Source: Hoyosella subflava DQS3-9A1 (lineage in GTDB: Bacteria; Actinomycetota; Actinomycetes; Mycobacteriales; Mycobacteriaceae). Taken from it: 64,000 nt of DNA. The stretch covers positions 4,216,001 through 4,280,000 of the forward strand of contig NC_015564.1 in NCBI RefSeq assembly GCF_000214175.1. The letters are read 5' to 3'. The notes under the pieces were generated by a model, which saw nothing but the letters and a program-made list of their open reading frames with translations, had not been told where the DNA came from and ran no database searches. Position 1 is the stretch's first letter; each line of letters begins with the position of its first letter. This document shows positions 38,948-50,866 of this stretch, piece after piece. Made by a program: the position numbers and the translations under genes.

Positions 38948-39029
38948 CACGGTCCCAACTTTCTGCCACTGTTGATTGCGGTGCGCGCACCGCCGGTCTA
39001 GTCGTGCGCTGATACGTGAGGAGAACAGA

Positions 39030-41252
39030 TTGTTCGCGACGTTGGGACGCTTCGTCTATCGAGCGCGTTTCACCGTGCTTGCTCTCTTGGTCGCTATCCT
39101 GGCCGCCGCGGGTGCTTTCGGTCTCGGACTCGGTGACCGTCTCAGCCAGAGCGGGTGGGACGACCCGGGCAGCGAATCGGTTGCCGCTGAACGCATCGTC
39201 AAAGATGCGTTCGGACGGGATAATGCCGGGGACGTCGTCGTACTCTTTACCGCGCCTGACGGGTTCACGGTCGACGACCCCGAATTCGCGTCGGAAGCGC
39301 GTCAGCTTCTCACGCAGATCCGCGACGACAACCCCAGCGAAGTCGACTTCGTGCGCAGCTACTGGGATTCAGATGCCCTGCACATGCTGGCAACGCCTGA
39401 TCGCCAGCATGCGATCGCAAGCATAGGACTGCTCGGCGAGAACGATACCGAGGTGCTCGCCAACTTCCAGACCATCAAGTCGCAGTTCGACGCGAACGAC
39501 AGTAGCTTGCAGCTCGCGGGGCTACAGCCGGTTGCGAACGCGCTCAGTCAGGGGATGGAAGACGACATCAAGCGAATGGAACTGATCGCGCTTCCAGCGG
39601 TGGCGGTCCTTCTGTTCTTCATTTTCCGCGGTGTCGTGGCCGCCGCCCTCCCGGTGATCATCGGCGTTCTTACGGTAGGCGGCGCGTGGGGGGTCACTCG
39701 GCTGCTCACGGGCGTCGTCGAAGTGAACGTATTCGCGCAGTCGGTGATCTCCCTCATCGGCCTCGGGCTGGCGATAGATTATGGCCTTTTCGTCGTCAGC
39801 AGATTCCGGGAGGAACTCGCCGAGGGCTACGATGTGCCCGACGCGGTGCGAAGAACTGTCGCGACCGCGGGACGCACCGTTGTATTCTCAGCAACGATCA
39901 TCGCGATCAGCCTTGGTGGTCTGCTGGTGTTCCCGCAAGGCTTCCTGAAGTCGGTGGCATACGGCGCGATCGCCGCCGTATCGATCGCGGCGCTTCTCGC
40001 GGTGACGGTCCTCCCCGCACTCCTGAGCATTCTTGGCCGCAAGGTCGACGCGCTGGGCTTCGCGAAACTTCGGCCGACCAAGCCCGCCGCCGAGATGCAG
40101 CACACCTTCTGGGGGCGTATCGCGGGCTGGTCGATCAAGCGGCCACTCCGGGTTGCCGTCCCTGTCACCATCGGTCTGCTGCTTCTGGTGATCCCATTCG
40201 GCAACATTCAGTTCGGCGGCATGTCCGAGAACTACCTGCCCCCGGATAACGAGACGCGCATCGCGCAGCAGCAATTCGATGAGCTGTTTCCCACGTTCCG
40301 CACGAAGCCAATCAAGGTCGTGATCACCGGGGACATCTCCGCAACTGGTGACGTACTCCGCCAGGCGAATGAGGTTCCTGGCTTCACCGGAGCATTTGAG
40401 CTCGAGAGCCGGGCTCAGAATGTCGTCGTGCTTTCCGCGGGCCTGGTTGACGAGGCGACGGCGGGGGACGCGATCGGCGGTCTGAGAGCGATCGACGTGC
40501 CAGACGGTACTGAGGTGCTGGTAGGCGGCGGTCCCGCTATCGAGCGTGACAGTATCGATGCGATGGTCACGATGATGCCGCTGATGGCTGTCGTGGTTGT
40601 CCTGATCACGACACTGCTGATGTTCCTTGCCTTCGGCTCGCTCACACTGCCCATCAAGGCCGTCGTCATGACCGCTCTCAGCCTTGGTTCCACGCTCGGC
40701 ATCCTGACGTGGATTTTTATCGACGGCCACGGAGCGTCACTGCTGAACTTCACACCTGGACCGCTCATGGCTGCAGTAGTCGTCCTGATCGTGGCGATCA
40801 TCTACGGCTTGTCGACTGACTACGAGATCTTCCTCGTCTCACGCATGGTCGAGGCGCGCGCCAAGGGTGCGAGCACAAGCGAGGCCATCAGAATGGGCAC
40901 CGCGCAAACAGGTCACATCATCACTGCCGCAGCGCTCATCCTGATTGTGGTAACTGGAGCGTTCGGCTTTTCTGAGATCGCAATGATGAAGTACATCGCG
41001 TTCGGCATGATCGCAGCGCTCATCATCGACGCCACGGTCATCCGGATGCTTCTCGTGCCGTCCGTCATGCGCCTGCTGGGTGAGGACTGCTGGTGGGCGC
41101 CAGAATGGATGAAACGGATACAGCGCAAGATCGGCCTGCAAGAACACGAACTCGAGGACGAACTGCGGCCGGGCAGCACCGGCGCGCCACGCTTGACGTC
41201 GGAAACTTTGGCGGCCGGTGGTTCCCGCGAAGAGCTGGCGCAACGGCCGTAA
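39030..41252 (+). CDS. mmpL3: MmpL3-type mycolate (trehalose monomycolate) transporter
   Basis: A 740-residue RND-superfamily transporter with twelve membrane helices in two repeats and two periplasmic porter loops. The proton-relay Asp-Tyr pairs are present: Asp250-Tyr251 in GLAIDYGLFVVSRF and Asp597-Tyr598 in YGLSTDYEIFLVSRM, equivalent to the pairs essential in M. tuberculosis MmpL3. The trmB-NYN-mmpL3 order supports orthology. It exports trehalose monomycolate across the inner membrane. The cytoplasmic C-terminal tail is only about 50 residues, much shorter than the roughly 200 in mycobacteria. The TTG at 39030 has GAGGAG 6 bp upstream. Confidence 0.9.
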   Translation: MFATLGRFVYRARFTVLALLVAILAAAGAFGLGLGDRLSQSGWDDPGSESVAAERIVKDAFGRDNAGDVVVLFTAPDGFTVDDPEFASEARQLLTQIRDDNPSEVDFVRSYWDSDALHMLATPDRQHAIASIGLLGENDTEVLANFQTIKSQFDANDSSLQLAGLQPVANALSQGMEDDIKRMELIALPAVAVLLFFIFRGVVAAALPVIIGVLTVGGAWGVTRLLTGVVEVNVFAQSVISLIGLGLAIDYGLFVVSRFREELAEGYDVPDAVRRTVATAGRTVVFSATIIAISLGGLLVFPQGFLKSVAYGAIAAVSIAALLAVTVLPALLSILGRKVDALGFAKLRPTKPAAEMQHTFWGRIAGWSIKRPLRVAVPVTIGLLLLVIPFGNIQFGGMSENYLPPDNETRIAQQQFDELFPTFRTKPIKVVITGDISATGDVLRQANEVPGFTGAFELESRAQNVVVLSAGLVDEATAGDAIGGLRAIDVPDGTEVLVGGGPAIERDSIDAMVTMMPLMAVVVVLITTLLMFLAFGSLTLPIKAVVMTALSLGSTLGILTWIFIDGHGASLLNFTPGPLMAAVVVLIVAIIYGLSTDYEIFLVSRMVEARAKGASTSEAIRMGTAQTGHIITAAALILIVVTGAFGFSEIAMMKYIAFGMIAALIIDATVIRMLLVPSVMRLLGEDCWWAPEWMKRIQRKIGLQEHELEDELRPGSTGAPRLTSETLAAGGSREELAQRP

Positions 41253-41253
41253 C

Positions 41254-41673
41254 ATGCCCCGACACCCCCGTCGTGCATCCATGTTTCGTGGGCAGTGGGA
41301 TGTCCTCGGGATCGTGGCACTCGGCGGTGCGCTCGGAGCTTTCGCGCGGTACGCGCTCACGCTGGCCTGGCCCGCAGCGCCCGGCGCAATCCCCTGGCAC
41401 ACATTTATCGCGAATGCGACAGGATCCGCATTGATCGGCGTCACCATTGTGCTTGTCAGTGAAGTGAGGACAGCGCACCGGCTGATGCGGCCTTTCCTGG
41501 GCACCGGCGTGTTAGGTGGTTTCACCACGTTTTCGATCTATACCGCCGAGATAGTGGAACTCGTGGAGCACGGCCGCCGCATCGCCGCCGCGGGATACTT
41601 ATCACTGACACTCGTAGCAGCTCTGGCTGGAGTGTGGGCGGCCATGCGCATCACGCGAGCACTGGCGTCATAA
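41254..41673 (+). CDS. crcB: Fluoride channel subunit Fluc/CrcB (first copy)
   Basis: A 139-residue protein with four membrane helices. Motifs: GGALGAFARYAL, FIANATGSALIGV (channel Asn) and GTGVLGGFTTFSIYT (TTFS motif with the pore Phe). Fluc proteins export toxic fluoride as antiparallel dimers. It starts 1 bp after the mmpL3 stop (ATG 41254; MFRGQWDV at 41281 is an alternative). A DUF190 protein and a second crcB follow, so this is probably one half of a two-gene heterodimer. Confidence 0.9.
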   Translation: MPRHPRRASMFRGQWDVLGIVALGGALGAFARYALTLAWPAAPGAIPWHTFIANATGSALIGVTIVLVSEVRTAHRLMRPFLGTGVLGGFTTFSIYTAEIVELVEHGRRIAAAGYLSLTLVAALAGVWAAMRITRALAS

Positions 41674-41697
41674 GGCTCACGACCGAGGGGATAGCAA

Positions 41698-42042
41698 ATG
41701 ACAAGTAACCCCGCTTCCGCACTTCGGGTCATGGTGCTCCTCGCGGAGGATGACACCTGGCATCACAAGCCGCTCTACTCCGAGGTAGTCCACCGGGCTC
41801 GCGCTGCGGGTCTTGCCGGTGCGAGCGTTTTCCGCGGGATTGAAGGGTTCGGCGCGTCGGCCCTCGTTCATACGTCGCGGATACTTTCGCTCAGTGAAGA
41901 TCTGCCGATCGTCGTTGTGATCGTCGACAGCGAAAGCAAGGTCCGTGCCTTTCTTCCTGCGCTCGATGAGATTCTCAGCGACGCCGTCGTCCTTGTTGAT
42001 CCCGTTGAGTTCATCCGGTACCAGACGGAGCCTCACCAGTGA
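41698..42042 (+). CDS. DUF190 family protein
   Basis: A 114-residue soluble alpha/beta protein: [31 protein letters not shown] is the DUF190 signature region (residues 22-52), followed by [19 protein letters not shown]. This family resembles PII-like signalling proteins and commonly sits next to crcB genes, as here. It overlaps the second crcB (GTGA), so the three genes form one unit. Confidence 0.92.
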
Positions 42043-42422
42043 CGTGGCTGCTCATAGCCGCGGGCGCTGCCGTCGGAGCGCCCCTGCGCTATCTCACTGA
42101 TCGCTGGATTGCCACACGTCACGATTCGGTCTTTCCGTGGGGCACCTTCGCCGTCAACGTGGCTGGCAGCGCACTTCTTGGCGTCCTTGTCGGCGCTATC
42201 ACCGCAGGCTTGCTGCCGTATGAACTACAGCTTCTCTTAATCACTGGTTTCTGCGGTGCTCTCACCACCTATTCAACATTCTCGTACGAGACGATTCGCC
42301 TCGCGGAAGATGGAGCTGCCGCAGTGGCGATTGCGAACGTCGTGGCCACCATCGTCGTCGGCCTGCTCGCATTTGCTGGGGGTGCTGCCCTAGCGGGAGT
42401 GGTCTGGCAGGTCAGCGCATGA
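42039..42422 (+). CDS. crcB: Fluoride channel subunit Fluc/CrcB (second copy)
   Basis: A 127-residue protein with four helices. Motifs: [31 protein letters not shown] and [16 protein letters not shown] (TTYSTFS). The GTG start at 42039 overlaps the DUF190 stop. It probably pairs with the 41254-41673 protein. No fluoride riboswitch was recognised upstream of the unit. Confidence 0.92.
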
Positions 42423-42546: not shown

Positions 42547-44124
42547 GTGAGACTCATTCCGGGTTCGCTCTCGCGCACACTCAGCACGCGGTGGGTGTTC
42601 TACGTAGTCTCAATGCTGGCCGCTAACGGCGTCGGCGCGCTGTTCGTCCTGACCTTCATCCGGTATGGCTTGCCGGTGTCGCCAGGGCCAGGGCTGATCG
42701 TGCGTGATCCGGTCAGCGAATTGGTCTTTGCGATTTACCTCGGTTTCGCCAGCGTCGCGATAATCGGTTCAGCAATCGTGATGCTGCGCTTCGCTATCCG
42801 CTGGTATGTGCGCGGAGGTCCACCAACACGGCGAGAACAGATAATGGCGGTGCGCGGGCCGCTTATTCAGTCATTCGTGTATCTCGCTTTGTGGCTGATT
42901 GGTGGCACGCTCTTCGTGATTCTCATCGGACGTGAGATGCCGGAACTCATGTCCACCACGGCGTTGACCGCAGCCCTCTCAGGGGTCGTTACCTTCGGTT
43001 TCACTTATCTACTCGGCGAGCGGATCATGCGGCCCGTCGCTGCGCGCGCGCTGTCTGACGGTAACGTCGACCCACGTATCGCACCCAGTGTGCGGCTCCG
43101 GATGGCGGTCGGTCTCGTCTCGGGAACGCTTGTACCGGCTATCGGCATCACTCTTCTGAGCTTCACACAGCTGTCGACCCACGCTTACGCTCCCCGTTCG
43201 TTCGCATGGTCGGTCCTGCTTGTCGCCATCGCGATGATCCTGGCTGCTCTCGTGACAACTGTTCTTCTTGCAGGCCAGGTATCGACACCCCTGCGGCAGT
43301 TGACCCGCGCCGTAACGGAAGCTCAGCGCGGAGACGACGCGCAAGTGGAGGTCTATGACGGCAGCGAGGTCGGCCTTCTGCAGGTCGGGTTCAACCAGAT
43401 GATGGCTGACTCTGCGGAACGGCGCGTGCTACGGCAACTATTCGGTCAGCACGTTGGTGAAGACGTCGCCCGGCAGGCATTACAGTTTGGTACCGAACTC
43501 GGTGGTGAAACACGCTTTGTGGCAGTGCTGTTCGTCGACATGGTCGGGTCCACCGCGGTCGTTTCGACAAAGCGTCCCGCCGATGTCGTCGCAATGTTGA
43601 ATCAGTTCTTCAATATTGTTATCGGAGTGGTGAAACGTCACGGCGGCTTCGTCAACAAGTTCGTCGGCGATGAGGCCCTCGCGATTTTCGGCGCTCCCCT
43701 GTACCGGGCCGACGCCCCCACCGCTGCGCTCTCGGCTGCCCGCGAACTTCGCGCGGAACTCGAAGCCATGCCAGAGATTTCCGTGGGTATCGGCGTTTCA
43801 TCCGGGACAGTTGTCGCGGGCAACATCGGATCCGAGGAGAGATTCGAATACACAGTCATCGGCGACCCAGTCAATGAAGCAGCGCGTCTTACCGAGCTTG
43901 CGAAGTCACGGCCCGGCAGTATCCTCGCGTCGAGTTACACGGTCTACTTCGCGGGAGAGGAAGAGCAGGAACACTGGGAGCTTGGAGAACTGGTGGCGCT
44001 GAGGGGCCGGACCAAGCTGACGCAACTAGCATGGCCACGGCACCCGCAACACGACGGGGATTCATCCGGCCACGATGAGCATCAGGAGTCGAACGAATCC
44101 GGCATCGATGCGGAGATGCGATAA
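42547..44124 (+). CDS. Membrane adenylate cyclase, class III with HAMP (intact)
   Basis: A 525-residue protein with six membrane helices (residues 15-255), a HAMP linker (about 250-300, QVSTPLRQLTRAV to EVGLLQVGFNQMM) and a class III cyclase domain (about 320-490). All catalytic positions are present: metal Asp331 and Asp375, adenine-specifying Lys371 and Asp440, transition-state Asn443 and Arg447. It should make cAMP as a homodimer. The architecture matches M. tuberculosis Rv1318c-Rv1320c/Rv3645. The start is GTG at 42547. The C-terminal tail is His/Asp/Glu-rich. Two paralogues follow at 45430 and 46959. Confidence 0.92.
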   Translation: MRLIPGSLSRTLSTRWVFYVVSMLAANGVGALFVLTFIRYGLPVSPGPGLIVRDPVSELVFAIYLGFASVAIIGSAIVMLRFAIRWYVRGGPPTRREQIMAVRGPLIQSFVYLALWLIGGTLFVILIGREMPELMSTTALTAALSGVVTFGFTYLLGERIMRPVAARALSDGNVDPRIAPSVRLRMAVGLVSGTLVPAIGITLLSFTQLSTHAYAPRSFAWSVLLVAIAMILAALVTTVLLAGQVSTPLRQLTRAVTEAQRGDDAQVEVYDGSEVGLLQVGFNQMMADSAERRVLRQLFGQHVGEDVARQALQFGTELGGETRFVAVLFVDMVGSTAVVSTKRPADVVAMLNQFFNIVIGVVKRHGGFVNKFVGDEALAIFGAPLYRADAPTAALSAARELRAELEAMPEISVGIGVSSGTVVAGNIGSEERFEYTVIGDPVNEAARLTELAKSRPGSILASSYTVYFAGEEEQEHWELGELVALRGRTKLTQLAWPRHPQHDGDSSGHDEHQESNESGIDAEMR

Positions 44125-44175
44125 CAAACGACCTACGCTGCACCACGAGATCGGCCCAATGGTTACTCTGGCGAC

Positions 44176-45408
44176 GTGACACCGTCCGCGCCGAAGCAGC
44201 CCCGGGCAATGCCTGGTGACCAAAATTCTGCTGCTAACGGCGCAGAACGGAGCGATTCGGGCGAGACTAAAGGGACGAAGAAGCAGAAGCGGCTGCGCTG
44301 GCTGAAGATCGTCGGCGGGGTTATCGTCATTGGCCTGTTGATCTTTCAGGGGGTCATTCTCTGGCCCACATTCGCTGACTCCTTCCGCGCTCTCCGTGAG
44401 CTCCACATCGGGTGGTTCATCGCCTCGCTCTCGGCGATGGCGCTGTCGATGACAGGCTTCGGCTGGGTCCAGAAAACCCTGCTGCACTCTGGCGGCGTCG
44501 AGGTTACCCAGCGAAGATCTGTTGCGGTCGTCTACGCCGCGACCTCAATGACGCTGACGCTGCCAGCTGGCCCGGTTTTCTCGGCGGCGTTCACGTATCG
44601 GCAAACGAGGCGCTGGGGTGCGAATCACGTAGTCGCCTCATGGCAGTTGGCCATGGCGGGGGTTACCGCCACCACGACGCTCGCCGTGGTCGCAGCGATC
44701 GGCGCGCTCGTCGTCGGAACGACGGTGAGCCCCGTGATGCTCATCGGGTCTTTCGCGGGGCTCATCGCGCTCGCTGTCGCCGGTCGCTATGTGTCAAAGA
44801 ACCCCGAAACGCTGGAAAAGTTCGGCCGCTGGGTACTTCGATTTGTCAACCGGATCCGGCGCCGCCCGCTGCAGGAGGGGCTCCATCGCGTCGATACCGT
44901 CCTTCAGCAGATCGAAGCGGTTCAGATGAATCGCTGGGATGCATTGAAGACCTTCTGGTGGTCCGCCGTGCACCGGAGCTCGGATGTGGCGTGCCTCGGT
45001 CTTGCTGCCTATGCGGTCGGCGCGGAGCCGCGCATCTCGGGAATCCTAATCGCTTTCGCTGCGAGCAAAGCTGTCGCGTCGTTCCCATTAGCGCCGGGCG
45101 GCTTGGGCACCGTCGACGCGACGCTGATGCTTACTCTCACCATCTCGGCGGGCCTGCCTGCTTCACAAGCGCTTGCGACGGTATTCGTTTACCGACTTGT
45201 CAGCCTTGTCCTGGTTAATATCGTAGGCTGGATCGTATTCTTCTTCTTGTTCCGCGCAAGACAGGCGGATGACGCTGAACTCGACCGTGAATTCGCTGAG
45301 GGCGACATTTTCCATGCAGAAGACACGCAGGATGATCGCGAGCAGCACGATCAGCCACCGCCAGGCGACGACCAGCAATCTCCACCGGGCCCGGATGCCC
45401 GTCAGTAG
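44176..45408 (+). CDS. YbhN/LPG-synthase-TM family membrane protein (Rv0204c-like)
   Basis: A 410-residue protein. The charged N-terminal cytoplasmic part (1-40, TKGTKKQKRLRWLK) is followed by about eight helices. The conserved core includes SMTLTLPAGPVFSAAFTYRQTR and FAASKAVASFPLAPGGLGTVD, the latter with the PGGLG-type motif of the lysylphosphatidylglycerol-synthase transmembrane/UPF0104 family. The acidic C-terminal tail is QHDQPPPGDDQQSPPG. Membership suggests lipid flipping or transport. In M. tuberculosis a protein of this size (Rv0204c) lies near mmpL3. The start is GTG at 44176; a later ATG at 44209 is possible. Confidence 0.8.
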   Translation: MTPSAPKQPRAMPGDQNSAANGAERSDSGETKGTKKQKRLRWLKIVGGVIVIGLLIFQGVILWPTFADSFRALRELHIGWFIASLSAMALSMTGFGWVQKTLLHSGGVEVTQRRSVAVVYAATSMTLTLPAGPVFSAAFTYRQTRRWGANHVVASWQLAMAGVTATTTLAVVAAIGALVVGTTVSPVMLIGSFAGLIALAVAGRYVSKNPETLEKFGRWVLRFVNRIRRRPLQEGLHRVDTVLQQIEAVQMNRWDALKTFWWSAVHRSSDVACLGLAAYAVGAEPRISGILIAFAASKAVASFPLAPGGLGTVDATLMLTLTISAGLPASQALATVFVYRLVSLVLVNIVGWIVFFFLFRARQADDAELDREFAEGDIFHAEDTQDDREQHDQPPPGDDQQSPPGPDARQ

Positions 45409-45429: not shown

Positions 45430-46962
45430 ATGAATCCATGGGATGTGCTTCGGCAATTAGCGCACCCTATCGTGCTGACCTACATTCTCAGCATCCTGAT
45501 GATCAACCTGATCGCTGCGATGACGGCCCTGATTCTCATCGGTGCCGTTATTCCCATACCCGTACTCGAGGATCCCGAGGGTGTGTGGGAACGCAATGTC
45601 GGCTGGTTCCTGATCGCGGTCCCGGTTTCCGCCGCGTGCTTCGCGGGCCTCCATTTGCGATATTCATGGCCGAACCTCGAATGGCTAGCGCGCGGCGGCA
45701 CACCCCGCTCGTACGAGGCACACGTCGCGCTCGGACAGACGAAGCGGCAGGTCCTCATCGAAGCGGGCGCCTGGATCGTGGCGACCTTCGGTTTCGTAAT
45801 CGTCAACCTCGCCGCGCAGTCAACCGAACTCCTGGTACTTATCGTCATCACCACCGCGATGGTGGGAGCGGTATCTGTCACCCTCGGCTACATCATCGGC
45901 GAGCGCATGTTACGGCCGCTCACCGCCGTGGCCATGTCTGTGCGCTTCCCCGCACAGCAGATCGCACCTGGTGTGGGTATTCGTGTTCTGCTGATTTGGG
46001 GGCTGACAACCGCGGTACCGGCCTTGGGCGTGGTTCTCATCTCTCTCTCCCAGATCACGGATCATGCAGGACCTGCGGCGACCGAAATGGACACCGCCGT
46101 CCTCGTCCTCTCCGTTCTGGCCATGCTCATCGGGTTCGTCGGCATTGTTATCGTCGCTCGTTCCATCTCAGACCCGCTGCAGCAGGTTAGCGACGCCATG
46201 CGCGGAGTCGAGGGTGGCGACCTTAGCGCGCGTGTCTCTGTCTACGATGGCTCCGAAATCGGCCAGCTACAGGCAGGCTTCAACAGCATGGTGAAGGGGC
46301 TCGCCGAGCGGGAACGCCTATCTGACCTGTTCAGCAAACATGTTGGGGAGGAGGTAGCGCGCGCTGCCATTGAACAGGGGAACGTCCGCGGCGGAGCATT
46401 GCGGAAGGTGTCGGTCCTGTTCATCGACCTTACCGGCTCGACCACCCTCGCGGCGGAACAGCCACCCGAGGTCGTTGTTGCGGCTCTCAACGAGTTTTTC
46501 GAACTCGTGGTTGACGCAGTGTCCGCGCACCAGGGGTTCGTCAGCAAATTCGAGGGCGACGCCGCGATAGCCGTCTTCGGGGCACCTTTGGATGTTCCCG
46601 AGGCGATCAGCCACGCGCTGAGCTGTGCGCGGCACATGCGGGAGACCCTCCGCGGACGAATTGCGCTCGATTTTGGCATCGGCGTCGCTTCCGGAAGCGC
46701 ACTCGCCGGAAACATCGGCGCCGCCGAACGTTTCGAGTACACCGTGCTCGGAACGCCGGTCATTAAAGCGACGGAACTCAGCGACTACGCGAAGACCCGC
46801 CCCAGCAGGGTCCTCACGACTGCGGAAGCGGTGAGCGCCGCGCTTCCTGAGGAAGCCCAGCACTGGCAAATTGTCTCGGTCGGTGAGCGAAGGCTGGCTG
46901 AACCAGCGCTTTCCGCCCCCTTGAACTTTTCGAGGCAGGTTTCAGGAGGTGAACAGTCATGA
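45430..46962 (+). CDS. Membrane class III cyclase homologue lacking substrate and transition-state residues
   Basis: A 510-residue paralogue of the cyclases at 42547 and 46959: six helices, HAMP (about 240-300) and cyclase domain (about 320-480). The metal Asp333 and Asp377 and Lys373 are kept, but the motif that reads GDPVNEAAR in the paralogues reads GTPVIKATE: Thr442 for the adenine-specifying Asp, Ile445 for the transition-state Asn, Glu449 for the Arg. The frame is otherwise clean, so this is not a sequencing slip. It is not expected to cyclise ATP as a homodimer. It overlaps the intact third cyclase by 4 bp (ATGA), suggesting a heterodimer. Confidence 0.9.
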   Translation: MNPWDVLRQLAHPIVLTYILSILMINLIAAMTALILIGAVIPIPVLEDPEGVWERNVGWFLIAVPVSAACFAGLHLRYSWPNLEWLARGGTPRSYEAHVALGQTKRQVLIEAGAWIVATFGFVIVNLAAQSTELLVLIVITTAMVGAVSVTLGYIIGERMLRPLTAVAMSVRFPAQQIAPGVGIRVLLIWGLTTAVPALGVVLISLSQITDHAGPAATEMDTAVLVLSVLAMLIGFVGIVIVARSISDPLQQVSDAMRGVEGGDLSARVSVYDGSEIGQLQAGFNSMVKGLAERERLSDLFSKHVGEEVARAAIEQGNVRGGALRKVSVLFIDLTGSTTLAAEQPPEVVVAALNEFFELVVDAVSAHQGFVSKFEGDAAIAVFGAPLDVPEAISHALSCARHMRETLRGRIALDFGIGVASGSALAGNIGAAERFEYTVLGTPVIKATELSDYAKTRPSRVLTTAEAVSAALPEEAQHWQIVSVGERRLAEPALSAPLNFSRQVSGGEQS

Positions 46963-48497
46963 CGCGCCCGATTCGCCTGCCCGAACTGCCCGAGTCGGTA
47001 GTCCCGATTTTCAATCAGCTCACCAAGCCGTTCACGCTGGCTTATTGCGCGTCGCTGATTTTCACGAACGGCCTCGGGGTTCTCCTGAGTTTCGCTCTAC
47101 TCCGCTACGTTCTGCCGCATCCAGCGAATGCCGTGATCACTCCTGATATTCGCAGCTCGAACACTGTGCTGATTTCCACGCTACTGCCACTTGCCCTTGC
47201 AGTCGGCGTCGCGGTGTCTGCCTGGGCGGGACGGCCAATCTTCCGGTGGATGGAACAGGGCGGAATGCCTAATCCGCGTCAGCACGCTCTCATCGTGAGC
47301 GCTCCGGCGCGTGAGACAGCTCTGATCGCCTCACTGTGGATCGCCGTCACCGTGGCGTTTGCCATCAGCGTCACGCGTATCAACAGCCCCCAGCTGACAC
47401 TGATGGTGATCCTGACTTTTCTGTCGGTGGGGCTCACATGCTGCGCGATCAGCTACTTCATCGCCGAACGAATTCTGCGGCGACTGATCTCGGATGCGAT
47501 GCATGGTGTCAGCATCGACGCCCGGTCGGCTACCTCGGTCACGATGCGACTTCTGACCATGTGGATTGTCACGGCAGCACTGCCACTCTTCTGGATTGTG
47601 CTGGTCGTGAGCTTCCGGTTCTTGTCGTCGATCTTTCCTGACACCGACCAGACAGCGACCGCGGTCGCGATACTCGGCATTCTCACCATAGTGGTCGGGT
47701 TCCTGGGTATGGCGGTGGTGGCGCGGTCGATCTCGGATCCGGTTAAGCAGGTCAGCGCGGCGATGGAGGCTGTAAAAAGCGGCCGATACGACATCTCGGT
47801 GCCAATCTACGATGGGTCGGAGATCGGTCGCCTCCAGTATGGATTCAACCAGATGGTTCATGGCCTCGCGGAACGCGAGAAGCTATCGGACATGTTTGGG
47901 CGTCGTGTCGGTACTGATGTTGTCCGGGAGGTTCTGGACCGCGGCGGGTCGCTTGGCGGCGAGTCGCGGGAGGTGGCTGTGATGTTTGTGGACCTCGTGG
48001 GTTCGAGCAAACGCATCGACGCGCTGCCACCCTACCGAGTGGTCGCGATGCTGAATGAGTTCTTTGAGGTCATCGTTGATACCGTGCATGCCCACGGCGG
48101 AATGGTGAACAAGTTCACAGGCGACGCCGCGCTCGCCGTTTTTGGTGCGCCCGTCGCCCTCCCCAACGTTGCGAGTGCCGCGCTGGCTACCGCGCGAGAG
48201 CTGCGGCCCCGCATACACGCCACCACGACGCTCAACTTCGGAATAGGCGTATCAGCTGGACGTGTGGTCGCCGGCAACGTGGGGGCGCGTAACCGACTCG
48301 AATACACGGTGATCGGAGATCCAGTCAACGAGGCCGCACGCCTCAAAGAGCTGGCGAAGACATGGCCTGGGCGGGTTCTAGCGTCATTCGAGGTGTTGCA
48401 GAAGGCCGACGCGTATGAATCATCGCGCTGGCTTCCCACAACGTCGGTCACACTGCGCGGCCGACTCACTCCGACCAGGCTTGCCGTACCGCGGTAG
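46959..48497 (+). CDS. Membrane adenylate cyclase, class III with HAMP (intact)
   Basis: A 512-residue protein with the same plan: six helices (25-250), HAMP (about 245-310) and cyclase domain (335-500). The full set of catalytic residues is present: Asp345, Asp389 (metal), Lys385, Asp454 (adenine specificity), Asn457, Arg461 (transition state). It is translationally coupled to the degenerate cyclase upstream and has an AGGAGGTG ribosome site inside that gene. It could act alone or supply the substrate-side half of a mixed dimer. Confidence 0.92.
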   Translation: MTRPIRLPELPESVVPIFNQLTKPFTLAYCASLIFTNGLGVLLSFALLRYVLPHPANAVITPDIRSSNTVLISTLLPLALAVGVAVSAWAGRPIFRWMEQGGMPNPRQHALIVSAPARETALIASLWIAVTVAFAISVTRINSPQLTLMVILTFLSVGLTCCAISYFIAERILRRLISDAMHGVSIDARSATSVTMRLLTMWIVTAALPLFWIVLVVSFRFLSSIFPDTDQTATAVAILGILTIVVGFLGMAVVARSISDPVKQVSAAMEAVKSGRYDISVPIYDGSEIGRLQYGFNQMVHGLAEREKLSDMFGRRVGTDVVREVLDRGGSLGGESREVAVMFVDLVGSSKRIDALPPYRVVAMLNEFFEVIVDTVHAHGGMVNKFTGDAALAVFGAPVALPNVASAALATARELRPRIHATTTLNFGIGVSAGRVVAGNVGARNRLEYTVIGDPVNEAARLKELAKTWPGRVLASFEVLQKADAYESSRWLPTTSVTLRGRLTPTRLAVPR

Positions 48498-48537: not shown

Positions 48538-48963
48538 GTGGTCGTGCAAAGCAAAAGCCCTGCCCGCGTAGTTACCCTCGCCGTCATCGTTGATGTCATC
48601 GCTGTCGTCGCGTTTGCGACCGCCGGACGTCTCCATCATGAAGAGGCAGCGAACATGGCCGGCGTCGTGAGTACCTCGCTGCCTTTCCTCGTGGGACTTG
48701 CGGCTGGCTGGATCACTGTTCTGAAAGCGCTAGAAAATGCGCACCCACTCGCGGTCTTCCCGACGGGCATCGCTCTGTGGGCTTGGACGATGGTCGGCGG
48801 GGTCATCATTCGCCTGCTATCGGGTGAGGGCGCCGCACTCGCGTTCGTACTCACCGCCGCGTTGGTGACGGGAGCATTGCTCATCGGCTGGCGCGGAATC
48901 GCGCAGCTGGTGCTCTACTTTCGGCGCAGAGCAAGCGCATCAGCTAGTTCTGAAGCGGTCTGA
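48538..48963 (+). CDS. DUF3054 family membrane protein
   Basis: A 141-residue protein with four helices: LAVIVDVIAVVAFATAGRLHHE, TSLPFLVGLAAGWITV, GIALWAWTMVGGVIIRLL and AFVLTAALVTGALLIGW. The pattern WxWTxxxGxxxR is typical of DUF3054, a small actinobacterial integral membrane family of unknown function. The start is GTG at 48538 (GTG 48544 possible). It is the last gene of the cyclase run; its 3' end overlaps the convergent PBP-like gene by 20 bp. Confidence 0.82.
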   Translation: MVVQSKSPARVVTLAVIVDVIAVVAFATAGRLHHEEAANMAGVVSTSLPFLVGLAAGWITVLKALENAHPLAVFPTGIALWAWTMVGGVIIRLLSGEGAALAFVLTAALVTGALLIGWRGIAQLVLYFRRRASASASSEAV

Positions 48964-50866
48964 GAAAACGGCCAGCTGAGTCGACAGCCGCGTGTGCGGT
49001 TCCTGCCTCGCCGACGAATACCGCGAAAGCGAGGTCACCGTCGATTCCAATAAACCAGCCGTGCATTTCGTCGCTCTTGTCGCCTTCGGCGGTTCCCACG
49101 GCGCCGATGAGCCCCGGCAAGTCCCCCAATTCAGCCGCACTCCCCTCGGTGACCACCTCACGCATCATGCGTTTCAGCGCGTTGGTCAGCGCGAGATCAA
49201 GCGGCAGGAGTTCTTCCACGCCCTCCGCGCCCTCCGCGGCCTCAGTCGTCGCTGACGGACTTGAGACATCGCGTGCTGCTCCGTTGGTGGGCGCGACAAG
49301 CACTGGTTCGGGGACGGAGCCGCGAGCAATTGAGGCCGCGACGAGCGCCATTCCGAATGGACTCGTCAGGACATCGCCCTGTCCGATCGACGCTTCAACG
49401 CGTTCCGTCCCCGATTCTGAGAATGGGACGCTGCCCGTGAGCGTAGTGAGACCCGGCGTTTCGAGGTCGAGACCGATTCCAAGACGCAGCGCCATATCAT
49501 GCAGCGCTTCGTTGGATAATCCGAGCGCAATCTGCGCCAGCGTTGTATTGCACGACCGTGCAAATGCGCTTGAGAAGGGCACCTCACCAGGTGTTTCTTC
49601 GCCAGGGTTGGCGACCCGACGTTCCTCGTAGATTCCTTCCTCTGGGCAAAGGACAGTCTCGTCGGGCATTATGAGCCCCTCGGTCATCGCCGCCAGCGCG
49701 GTGATGGCGGTGAAGGCTGCGCCGGGAGGGAACAACCCGGTGAGCGCAATCGGGCCGAACTCGTTCGCGGCCTCGTTCTGTGCCACCGCGAGGACCGCTC
49801 CCGAACTCGGTTTAAGCGCGACGATGACAGCCGGTTCCGCCACATCAACGATTGCGTCCTGCGCTGCCATCTGGACTTCGAGGTCGAGTTCGGTCTTGAC
49901 ATCGCTCAGTGGGATCCCCGGTTCTGACGCGAGGACTGTCGCGGATCCGCCGACATCAACCAGTTCAACAGTCCAGCCTGCAGACTCCTCCTGTCGCTCC
50001 TCCCACGAGTCCCGAAGAACACCAAAAACGGGAGAGCTAAGCGCGCGAGTCGCAGTCAGCAATCGAGCCTGATCCGACACTGTCACGCCGGGGATAGCGG
50101 CAAGTTGACCCTGAATACCGGCATAGTCGTCAGCGCGCAACGCGGTAACAGCGACGGGATTGCCCCGCCCGCTCGAGAGCGTGTCGAGAATCTTCGCCCG
50201 GGTGAGTCTCGCATCGAACGGCCGCAGCAAAGGCTCGAGCGCATCGGCCGCAGCGCCGGGGCTGGTGACGTGCGCGGGGTCCACGGTGATCATCTTCACT
50301 GTCTGCTGTGCCATCACTGTCTGGCCAGCCCTGTCACGGATCTCGGGCGGGTCGGGCGGTTGCGGCCGGAAGCGAACTTGTTCGCCCTCCTGCAGCCCTG
50401 GCACAAGAATGTCCGGGCGCCACGCTATTTGCCAGTTCTGCCCCTCACGCACAGCGGTGCCGTTGGTGGAGAACACCCATTCGCGGGGCCCGTACGCGCT
50501 CCCACCGAGATTCCAGACGGCTCCGAGGGTGAAGTCCGCGCCGTTGCGCCCCGCCGAACCTCCGACGGTGAGGGCCTGCACCACGAACTCCGCCCCGTCC
50601 CGGTTAAGCGCGGTGAAAACCCGGTCGATGTCGTCCCGCGCCCGCTCGGGACTGTCCGTGTAACCCGCGGCGAGCGCGGCGTCGCCCTCGGAAAGCGCAT
50701 CGGTGAAAGCCCGCAGCGTATCCAGCGCATCTGGCCGCGCCGGGGGCGCCTCACACCCGATCAGCGCCGTCGCGCCGAGCACGGCGGCAAGCAGCAACGC
50801 GACCGCCGACGAGCGGTTACGCGCGACTGAGACGCGGCGCGGCGGACGGGCTGACGGAGGGCACAC
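48944..50866 (-). CDS. Penicillin-binding-protein-like lipoprotein with lost catalytic residues
   Basis: A 640-residue lipoprotein. The lipobox ALIGC ends the signal, followed by an NTF2-like MecA-N-type domain (about 45-160), a PBP dimerisation-type domain (160-330) and a transpeptidase fold (335-640). The active-site SxxK is absent: PGAAFTAIT has Ala383 for Ser and Thr386 for Lys. The SxN motif is kept (RSCNT). The KTG motif reads AVGTAEG (589-595). It cannot therefore acylate as a normal PBP and may be a scaffold, regulator or beta-lactam-insensitive decoy. The start is GTG at 50866. A recent pseudogene is unlikely because the frame is intact. Confidence 0.85.
   Translation of the reverse strand: MCPPSARPPRRVSVARNRSSAVALLLAAVLGATALIGCEAPPARPDALDTLRAFTDALSEGDAALAAGYTDSPERARDDIDRVFTALNRDGAEFVVQALTVGGSAGRNGADFTLGAVWNLGGSAYGPREWVFSTNGTAVREGQNWQIAWRPDILVPGLQEGEQVRFRPQPPDPPEIRDRAGQTVMAQQTVKMITVDPAHVTSPGAAADALEPLLRPFDARLTRAKILDTLSSGRGNPVAVTALRADDYAGIQGQLAAIPGVTVSDQARLLTATRALSSPVFGVLRDSWEERQEESAGWTVELVDVGGSATVLASEPGIPLSDVKTELDLEVQMAAQDAIVDVAEPAVIVALKPSSGAVLAVAQNEAANEFGPIALTGLFPPGAAFTAITALAAMTEGLIMPDETVLCPEEGIYEERRVANPGEETPGEVPFSSAFARSCNTTLAQIALGLSNEALHDMALRLGIGLDLETPGLTTLTGSVPFSESGTERVEASIGQGDVLTSPFGMALVAASIARGSVPEPVLVAPTNGAARDVSSPSATTEAAEGAEGVEELLPLDLALTNALKRMMREVVTEGSAAELGDLPGLIGAVGTAEGDKSDEMHGWFIGIDGDLAFAVFVGEAGTAHAAVDSAGRFLRPLQN

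Follow-up and report, generated by a model that had tools for sequence, protein, structure and literature searches.

The locus and its genes

The window analysed here is a stretch of 64,000 nucleotides from Hoyosella subflava DQS3-9A1. Its cyclase locus contains, on the plus strand and in this order, AC1, a flippase-like protein, AC2 and AC3 (Table 1). In AC1, AC2 and AC3 a HAMP domain (PF00672) is followed by a Guanylate_cyc domain (PF00211), both above the Pfam cut-offs; the NCBIfam matches of the three proteins are all below cut-off and are mostly to histidine-kinase models. The class III fold is found in the predicted structure models. Long helices span residues 13-40, 52-88, 94-125, 132-160, 182-209 and 215-261 in the predicted model of AC2, and the N-terminus is modelled as a six-helix membrane domain. 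The original prediction, made from the DNA letters, had described a pair of reading frames overlapping by four bases and an intact third paralogue upstream, and both are confirmed.

There are 11 Guanylate_cyc matches in the genome, among which only AC2 is without the transition-state Arg. Another cyclase of the same genome (G000:C3:4594003-4594494) has Ala for the transition-state Asn and keeps the Arg, like Ma1120. The neighbours of the locus at 38976-42422 and 48944-50866 presumably resemble an MmpL transporter, two CrcB (fluoride exporter) genes flanking a small ORF, and a penicillin-binding protein (PBP). Scans of the window for Rfam families (gathering threshold) and for tRNA genes found nothing.

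Table 1. Positions of genes, domains and key residues in the window
Feature	Position	Strand	Remark
AC1, intact paralogue; groups with a gene widespread in the family	42547..44124	+	
Flippase-like / LPG_synthase_TM protein, between AC1 and AC2	44176..45408	+	
AC2, membrane/HAMP class III cyclase homologue, proposed C1-type subunit	45430..46962	+	ORF 510 aa
AC2 HAMP domain, residues 242-291	46153..46302	+	Pfam
AC2 Asp333, metal ligand 1	46426..46428	+	kept 7/7
AC2 Lys373	46546..46548	+	kept 7/7
AC2 Asp377, metal ligand 2	46558..46560	+	kept 7/7
AC2 Thr438, base-specifying position	46741..46743	+	kept 7/7
AC2 TPVIKATE (442-449), replaces DPVNEAAR	46753..46776	+	Asn, Arg lost 7/7
AC2 C-terminal hairpin (479-492) without LRGR segment	46864..46905	+	7-column gap, 7/7
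AC2/AC3 stop/start overlap ATGA	46959..46962	+	ATGA ends AC2 in 7/7 genomes
AC3, intact class IIIb membrane/HAMP cyclase, proposed C2-type partner	46959..48497	+	ORF 512 aa
AC3 DPVNEAAR (454-461), intact	48318..48341	+	
AC3 LRGR (499-502), intact	48453..48464	+	

Active-site residues

AC2 has D333, K373 and D377, and carries T442, I445 and E449 where AC1 and AC3 have Asp, Asn and Arg. These residues, and with them the loss of Asn and Arg, are as the original prediction gave them, but its label of the first lost residue as the adenine-specifying Asp is not correct. For Rv1625c, Asp365 is described as binding the substrate and Asn372 as orienting the ribose, while Arg376 is a predicted phosphate contact (PMC4174876). 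Since this spacing puts I445 at +7 and E449 at +11, the base-specifying position of AC2 is Thr438, which is kept; position 442 is the Asp position of the GDPVN motif and not the adenine specifier. Thr at this base position is known in some adenylyl and guanylyl cyclases (PMC4215837). The base-position Thr is common to AC1, AC2 and AC3, and together with the Lys located four residues before the second metal Asp it forms the pair T438/K373 in AC2 and T450/K385 in AC3. A Thr at the base position defines class IIIb.

A further loss is found near the C-terminus, where the LRGR segment is absent from AC2 through a 7-column alignment gap in all seven orthologues. The segment is present in AC1, AC3 and all other rows of the homologue alignment that extend to it. 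According to PMC3591389, Lys593 of the beta subunit of soluble guanylyl cyclase (sGC) is expected to stabilise the gamma-phosphate; by motif and position, we read LRGR as the putative counterpart of this residue and of mammalian Lys1065. Three of the five C2-face positions are thus gone in AC2 (Asn, Arg and the LRGR loop) and two stay (Lys and Thr), while D333, D377, G336, S337 and G376 on the metal face are invariant in 7/7. Judged from these residues, the catalytic losses of AC2 are located on the "C2" face and the metal-binding "C1" face is intact. Residues found only in AC2, namely A420, L425 and L440 (7/7) and I/L445, may form the wall of a hydrophobic pocket in the dead site (46687-46764, residues 420-445).

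AC3 has the Lys, the base residue, Asn, Arg and the basic residues of the phosphate loop in 7/7 genomes, in agreement with the claim that it has all residues. Unlike mammalian C2, which is described as being without the metal-binding residues (PMC4174876), AC3 also retains the metal ligands D345 and D389 in 7/7.

Conservation among relatives

Orthologues of AC2 were collected from seven genomes, which are all three genomes of Hoyosella in the comparison set and all four in that set of its sister genus, probably Lolliginicoccus. The closest relatives are those of H. altamirensis (94% identity) and Hoyosella sp. YIM 151337 (80%). The order AC1-flippase-AC2-AC3 is retained in all seven genomes. 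ATGA ends all seven AC2 genes with the ATG of AC3 in frame; in genome G079 the computed AC3 start is an ATG six bases downstream, and the ATGA start is likewise in frame. Both metal Asps, Lys373 and Thr438, the first three of which the original prediction had listed as kept, do not vary. The relatives were searched for a normal motif in the AC2 gene, which by the original prediction would have spoken for recent decay and refuted it, and none was found: Asn and Arg are lost in 7/7 genomes of two genera, with Ile or Leu at position 445, Thr, Met, Ala or Gly at 442 and Glu, Gln, Ser or Ala at 449. The control sets, which overlap in part, keep both residues in AC1 (7/7), AC3 (7/7), 23 of the 23 non-AC2 loci among the 30 from the family search, and 44/44 non-AC2 rows with filled motif columns in an alignment of 49 rows (four others are AC2 and one ends before the motif). 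As far as sequences can tell, the loss in AC2 is old and fixed; chance or an assembly artefact is disfavoured as its cause, because it recurs in 7/7 independent genomes.

The pairwise dN/dS of AC2 is 0.063 between the source genome and one other Hoyosella (G000-G001), 0.075 for the other (G000-G002), and 0.109, 0.127 and 0.132 for sister-genus pairs; this range of 0.06-0.13 covers the five pairs with finite dS, since the G000-G079 value is undefined with saturated dS. For the same pairs in order, the values are 0.021, 0.031, 0.070, 0.070 and 0.085 for AC3, and 0.039, 0.044, 0.191, 0.127 and 0.074 for AC1, whose start codons are uncertain in the sister genus. AC2 lies above AC3 in all five pairs and above AC1 in three. 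These values point to purifying selection on AC2 that is about 1.5 to 3 times looser than on AC3.

The sites invariant in all 14 AC1 and AC3 proteins were counted where AC2 also keeps them in 7/7. AC2 keeps 21 of 28 such sites within residues 325-385, the metal half, 4 of 8 within the middle region 386-412 and 21 of 42 from residue 413 on; the difference between the metal half and the part from 413 is marginal (Fisher p 0.048, weak), and the catalytic residues show the asymmetry more clearly. Within region 386-412, the G000 and G079 proteins are 37% identical in AC2 and 67% in AC3.

The two genes occur together. In searches of genome samples that scored a limited set of candidates from each genome, AC2 (P0001) was found in the seven genomes at 652-1085 bits with the next gene at 445, and the AC3 profile found the same seven at 1031-1074 bits with the next at 492 (151 family genomes in both). 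Among 348 genomes sampled from the order, the AC2 profile scored 993 bits in the source genome and about 411 for the next match, and no further member of the two genera was among the matches listed. A plasmid location of the pair was also considered and rejected: seven plasmid records matched P0001, all below 60% identity, and the five listed were at 36-40%.

Similarity to heterodimeric cyclases

The AC2 profile scores above the AC3 profile for the isolated C1-like chains sGC alpha-1 6jt0_A (27.7 versus 18.3 bits), 6pas_A (25.8 versus 20.0), 4ni2_A (23.3 versus 15.1) and 1cjk_A (24.5 versus 22.3). However, it is also higher for the homodimeric guanylyl cyclase Cya2 (86.3 versus 79.4), the phytochrome chimera 6fht (91.0 versus 88.2) and sAC (53.1 versus 51.4), and the AC3 profile is the higher one for full-length AC5 (31.1 versus 23.8), AC8 (43.0 versus 36.4) and AC9 (26.4 versus 23.2). 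Among the matches listed for the structure models, with one chain per entry listed and Z gaps under 1 counted as ties, the best sGC chain is A (alpha) for AC2 in 3/3 sGC entries and B for AC3 in 6/6 heterodimeric sGC entries. Preference for mammalian C1 or C2 chains does not separate the two, as both models favour the C1 chain in 1cjk and 1azs. With these exceptions, there is a hint that AC2 leans to sGC-alpha (C1-like) and the fold of AC3 to sGC-beta.

Origin of the gene pair

In the tree AC1 groups with a gene that is widespread in the family. AC1 and its kin are separated, at a branch support of 100/99, from AC2 and AC3, from the single cyclases of the genera g14 and g25 and from two genes of g19; four more rows join the AC2/AC3 side in a wider tree, with support 92. 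A sister relation of AC2 and AC3 is neither supported nor rejected by the trees: forcing it costs 0.23 log units (p-AU 0.45), and long branches meet in both trees.

A single intact cyclase is located upstream of a homologue of the 48415 gene in six genomes (G042, G076, G060, G015 and G092 of g14; G026 of g25), where these homologues have 39-46% identity over about 100 residues. The distance to the 48415-like gene is direct or within about 1 kb in five genomes and about 5 kb in G026, and a PBP-like gene (30-32%) follows some kb beyond it in all six. In G042, AC1 and the flippase are likewise upstream, about 11 kb from the single cyclase (L079). At three further loci (L080, L084, L085) the 48415-like and PBP-like genes come after the flippase and no cyclase intervenes, and the order of single cyclase and 48415-like gene is absent from the compared rows of G062, G119, G019 and G013. 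Genomes with a single cyclase beside the same neighbour gene indicate that the AC2/AC3 pair probably stands where one gene stood. It probably goes back to one homodimeric cyclase that was duplicated and then specialised, and the duplication would have occurred in place.

Two other arrangements were observed. In G026 (L077:6934-11935) three membrane/HAMP cyclases follow one another directly; all are intact and none is degenerate. AC1 and the flippase-like gene (42547-45408) adjoin in other genera too (L079, L080, L083, L084, L085, L087), a hint from gene order that AC1 may be linked to the lipid-flippase-like protein.

Proposed mechanism and alternatives

The reading that we prefer, with a probability of about 0.56, is that AC2 and AC3 are unequal subunits of a membrane adenylyl cyclase of the C1/C2-like kind. 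The two proteins would be made together from the overlapping gene pair, and the overlap favours such joint synthesis; they would then associate via contacts of the membrane, HAMP and catalytic domains. At the working site the two metal Asps would come from AC2, while Lys, Thr, Asn, Arg and the LRGR loop would come from AC3. The mirror site would receive its metal Asps from AC3 and would be dead, because AC2 does not provide Asn, Arg and the LRGR loop. As the Lys/Thr base contacts and the hydrophobic I/L445 are kept, this site may nevertheless bind a nucleotide or some other ligand. From sequence we infer both the heterodimerisation with one-site catalysis and any ligand at the dead pocket. With its two distinct membrane domains, such an enzyme would be able to respond to two inputs.

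Because the subunits split the catalytic residues, the number of complete sites expected from the residues is zero for an AC2 homodimer, two for an AC3 homodimer and one for AC2:AC3. The claim of exactly one working site therefore does not hold as it was stated: AC3 has every residue, so it is true only if the pair heterodimerises, and active two-site AC3 homodimers are possible on the sequence. The C1/C2-type reading itself gains from the loss of LRGR on the same face and is weakened by the metal Asps of AC3. Also against a C1 role, AC2 keeps Lys373 and Thr438, which are needless for a pure C1. Both the Lys and the base Asp are likewise present in mammalian C1. Loss of the Asn alone would prove nothing, because Ma1120 is reported as active with Ala in this position (PMC4215837).

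The same report gives some support to AC2 being still an active homodimeric cyclase, with other residues replacing Asn, Arg and the LRGR loop. This is very improbable, as Arg and LRGR are gone too and positions 442 and 449 vary, unlike a replacement catalytic set. A dead AC2 homodimer serving as a nucleotide- or metal-binding sensor is improbable: Lys373, Thr438 and both Asps are kept and may bind metal-nucleotide, but the overlap and the co-occurrence with AC3 in 7/7 genomes argue against it. That AC2 is a decaying gene is hardly credible. Its faster change, compared with AC3 in 5/5 pairs and with AC1 in 3/5, would agree with decay, but the frame is open, dN/dS is low, and the metal site and overlap are kept across two genera.

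It is also necessary to consider that AC2 binds AC3 (or AC1) mainly as a regulatory pseudo-enzyme, gating or lowering activity through its own membrane/HAMP domain, with its metal Asps adding little to turnover. AC3 is complete on paper and needs no help, AC2 evolves faster than AC3 in every finite-dS pair (for example 0.063 versus 0.021 for G000-G001), and it is the less conserved of the two in region 386-412. We regard this as rather unlikely, since the metal Asps, G336, S337 and G376 of AC2, invariant in 7/7, would be hard to explain if unused. Beyond the preferred C1/C2-like assembly, we propose tentatively that bacteria independently evolved a C1/C2-type membrane cyclase, by duplication before Hoyosella and its sister genus diverged, loss of the C2 face only in one copy, and conversion of the dead pocket into a conserved hydrophobic regulatory site.

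Relation to known cyclases

Membrane domain, HAMP domain, class III catalytic domain and Thr at the base position are traits of the actinobacterial class IIIb cyclases Rv1318c, Rv1319c, Rv1320c and Rv3645, as they are of AC1-AC3. The catalytic domains of all four were reportedly active in work by Linder in 2004. AC2, likened to this type by description, differs by being without Asn, Arg and LRGR. PMC3961136 describes Rv1319c and Rv1320c as forming an operon.

In mammalian adenylyl cyclase, as described in PMC4174876, one domain supplies the metal Asps and the other the base and transition-state residues, giving one working site and one pseudo-site. AC2 resembles the C1 domain as a proposed C1-type subunit, in keeping the metal Asps without Asn and Arg; however, AC2 and AC3 are two bacterial, HAMP-containing genes and AC3 keeps its metal Asps. 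The account of sGC in PMC3591389 gives alpha D486 and D530 as the metal donor, N548, R552 and K593 in beta, a pseudo-site without key residues, separate genes, and homodimers neither of which is active. The separate genes for metal donor and partner are as in AC2/AC3, but sGC is a nitric oxide receptor making cGMP. Chytrid RGC/NeoR is presented in PMC8815786 as a natural membrane heterodimer from separate genes, as proposed for AC2/AC3. The same source describes RGC1 and RGC2 as keeping all cyclisation residues, with the cause of obligate heterodimerisation sought elsewhere. In contrast, the residues of AC2 are incomplete; RGC/NeoR is also fungal and light-driven. A natural bacterial heterodimer of the C1/C2 type was not found in a limited literature search, which speaks weakly for there being none.

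Unequal class III cyclases are thus known from animals (adenylyl cyclase C1/C2 and sGC) and chytrids (RGC/NeoR), and AC2/AC3 is a new bacterial candidate. It bears on the question of how and why a two-site bacterial homodimer became the one-site, regulator-binding heterodimer of animals. The apparent single-gene state and the duplicated, one-sided state are both present in related actinobacteria, making this step testable with small soluble domains. The pair also raises the question of whether loss of one face buys asymmetry, sensing by two membrane domains, or a ligand pocket. If the proposal is true, these bacteria would provide a living parallel of how the animal adenylyl cyclases may have begun.
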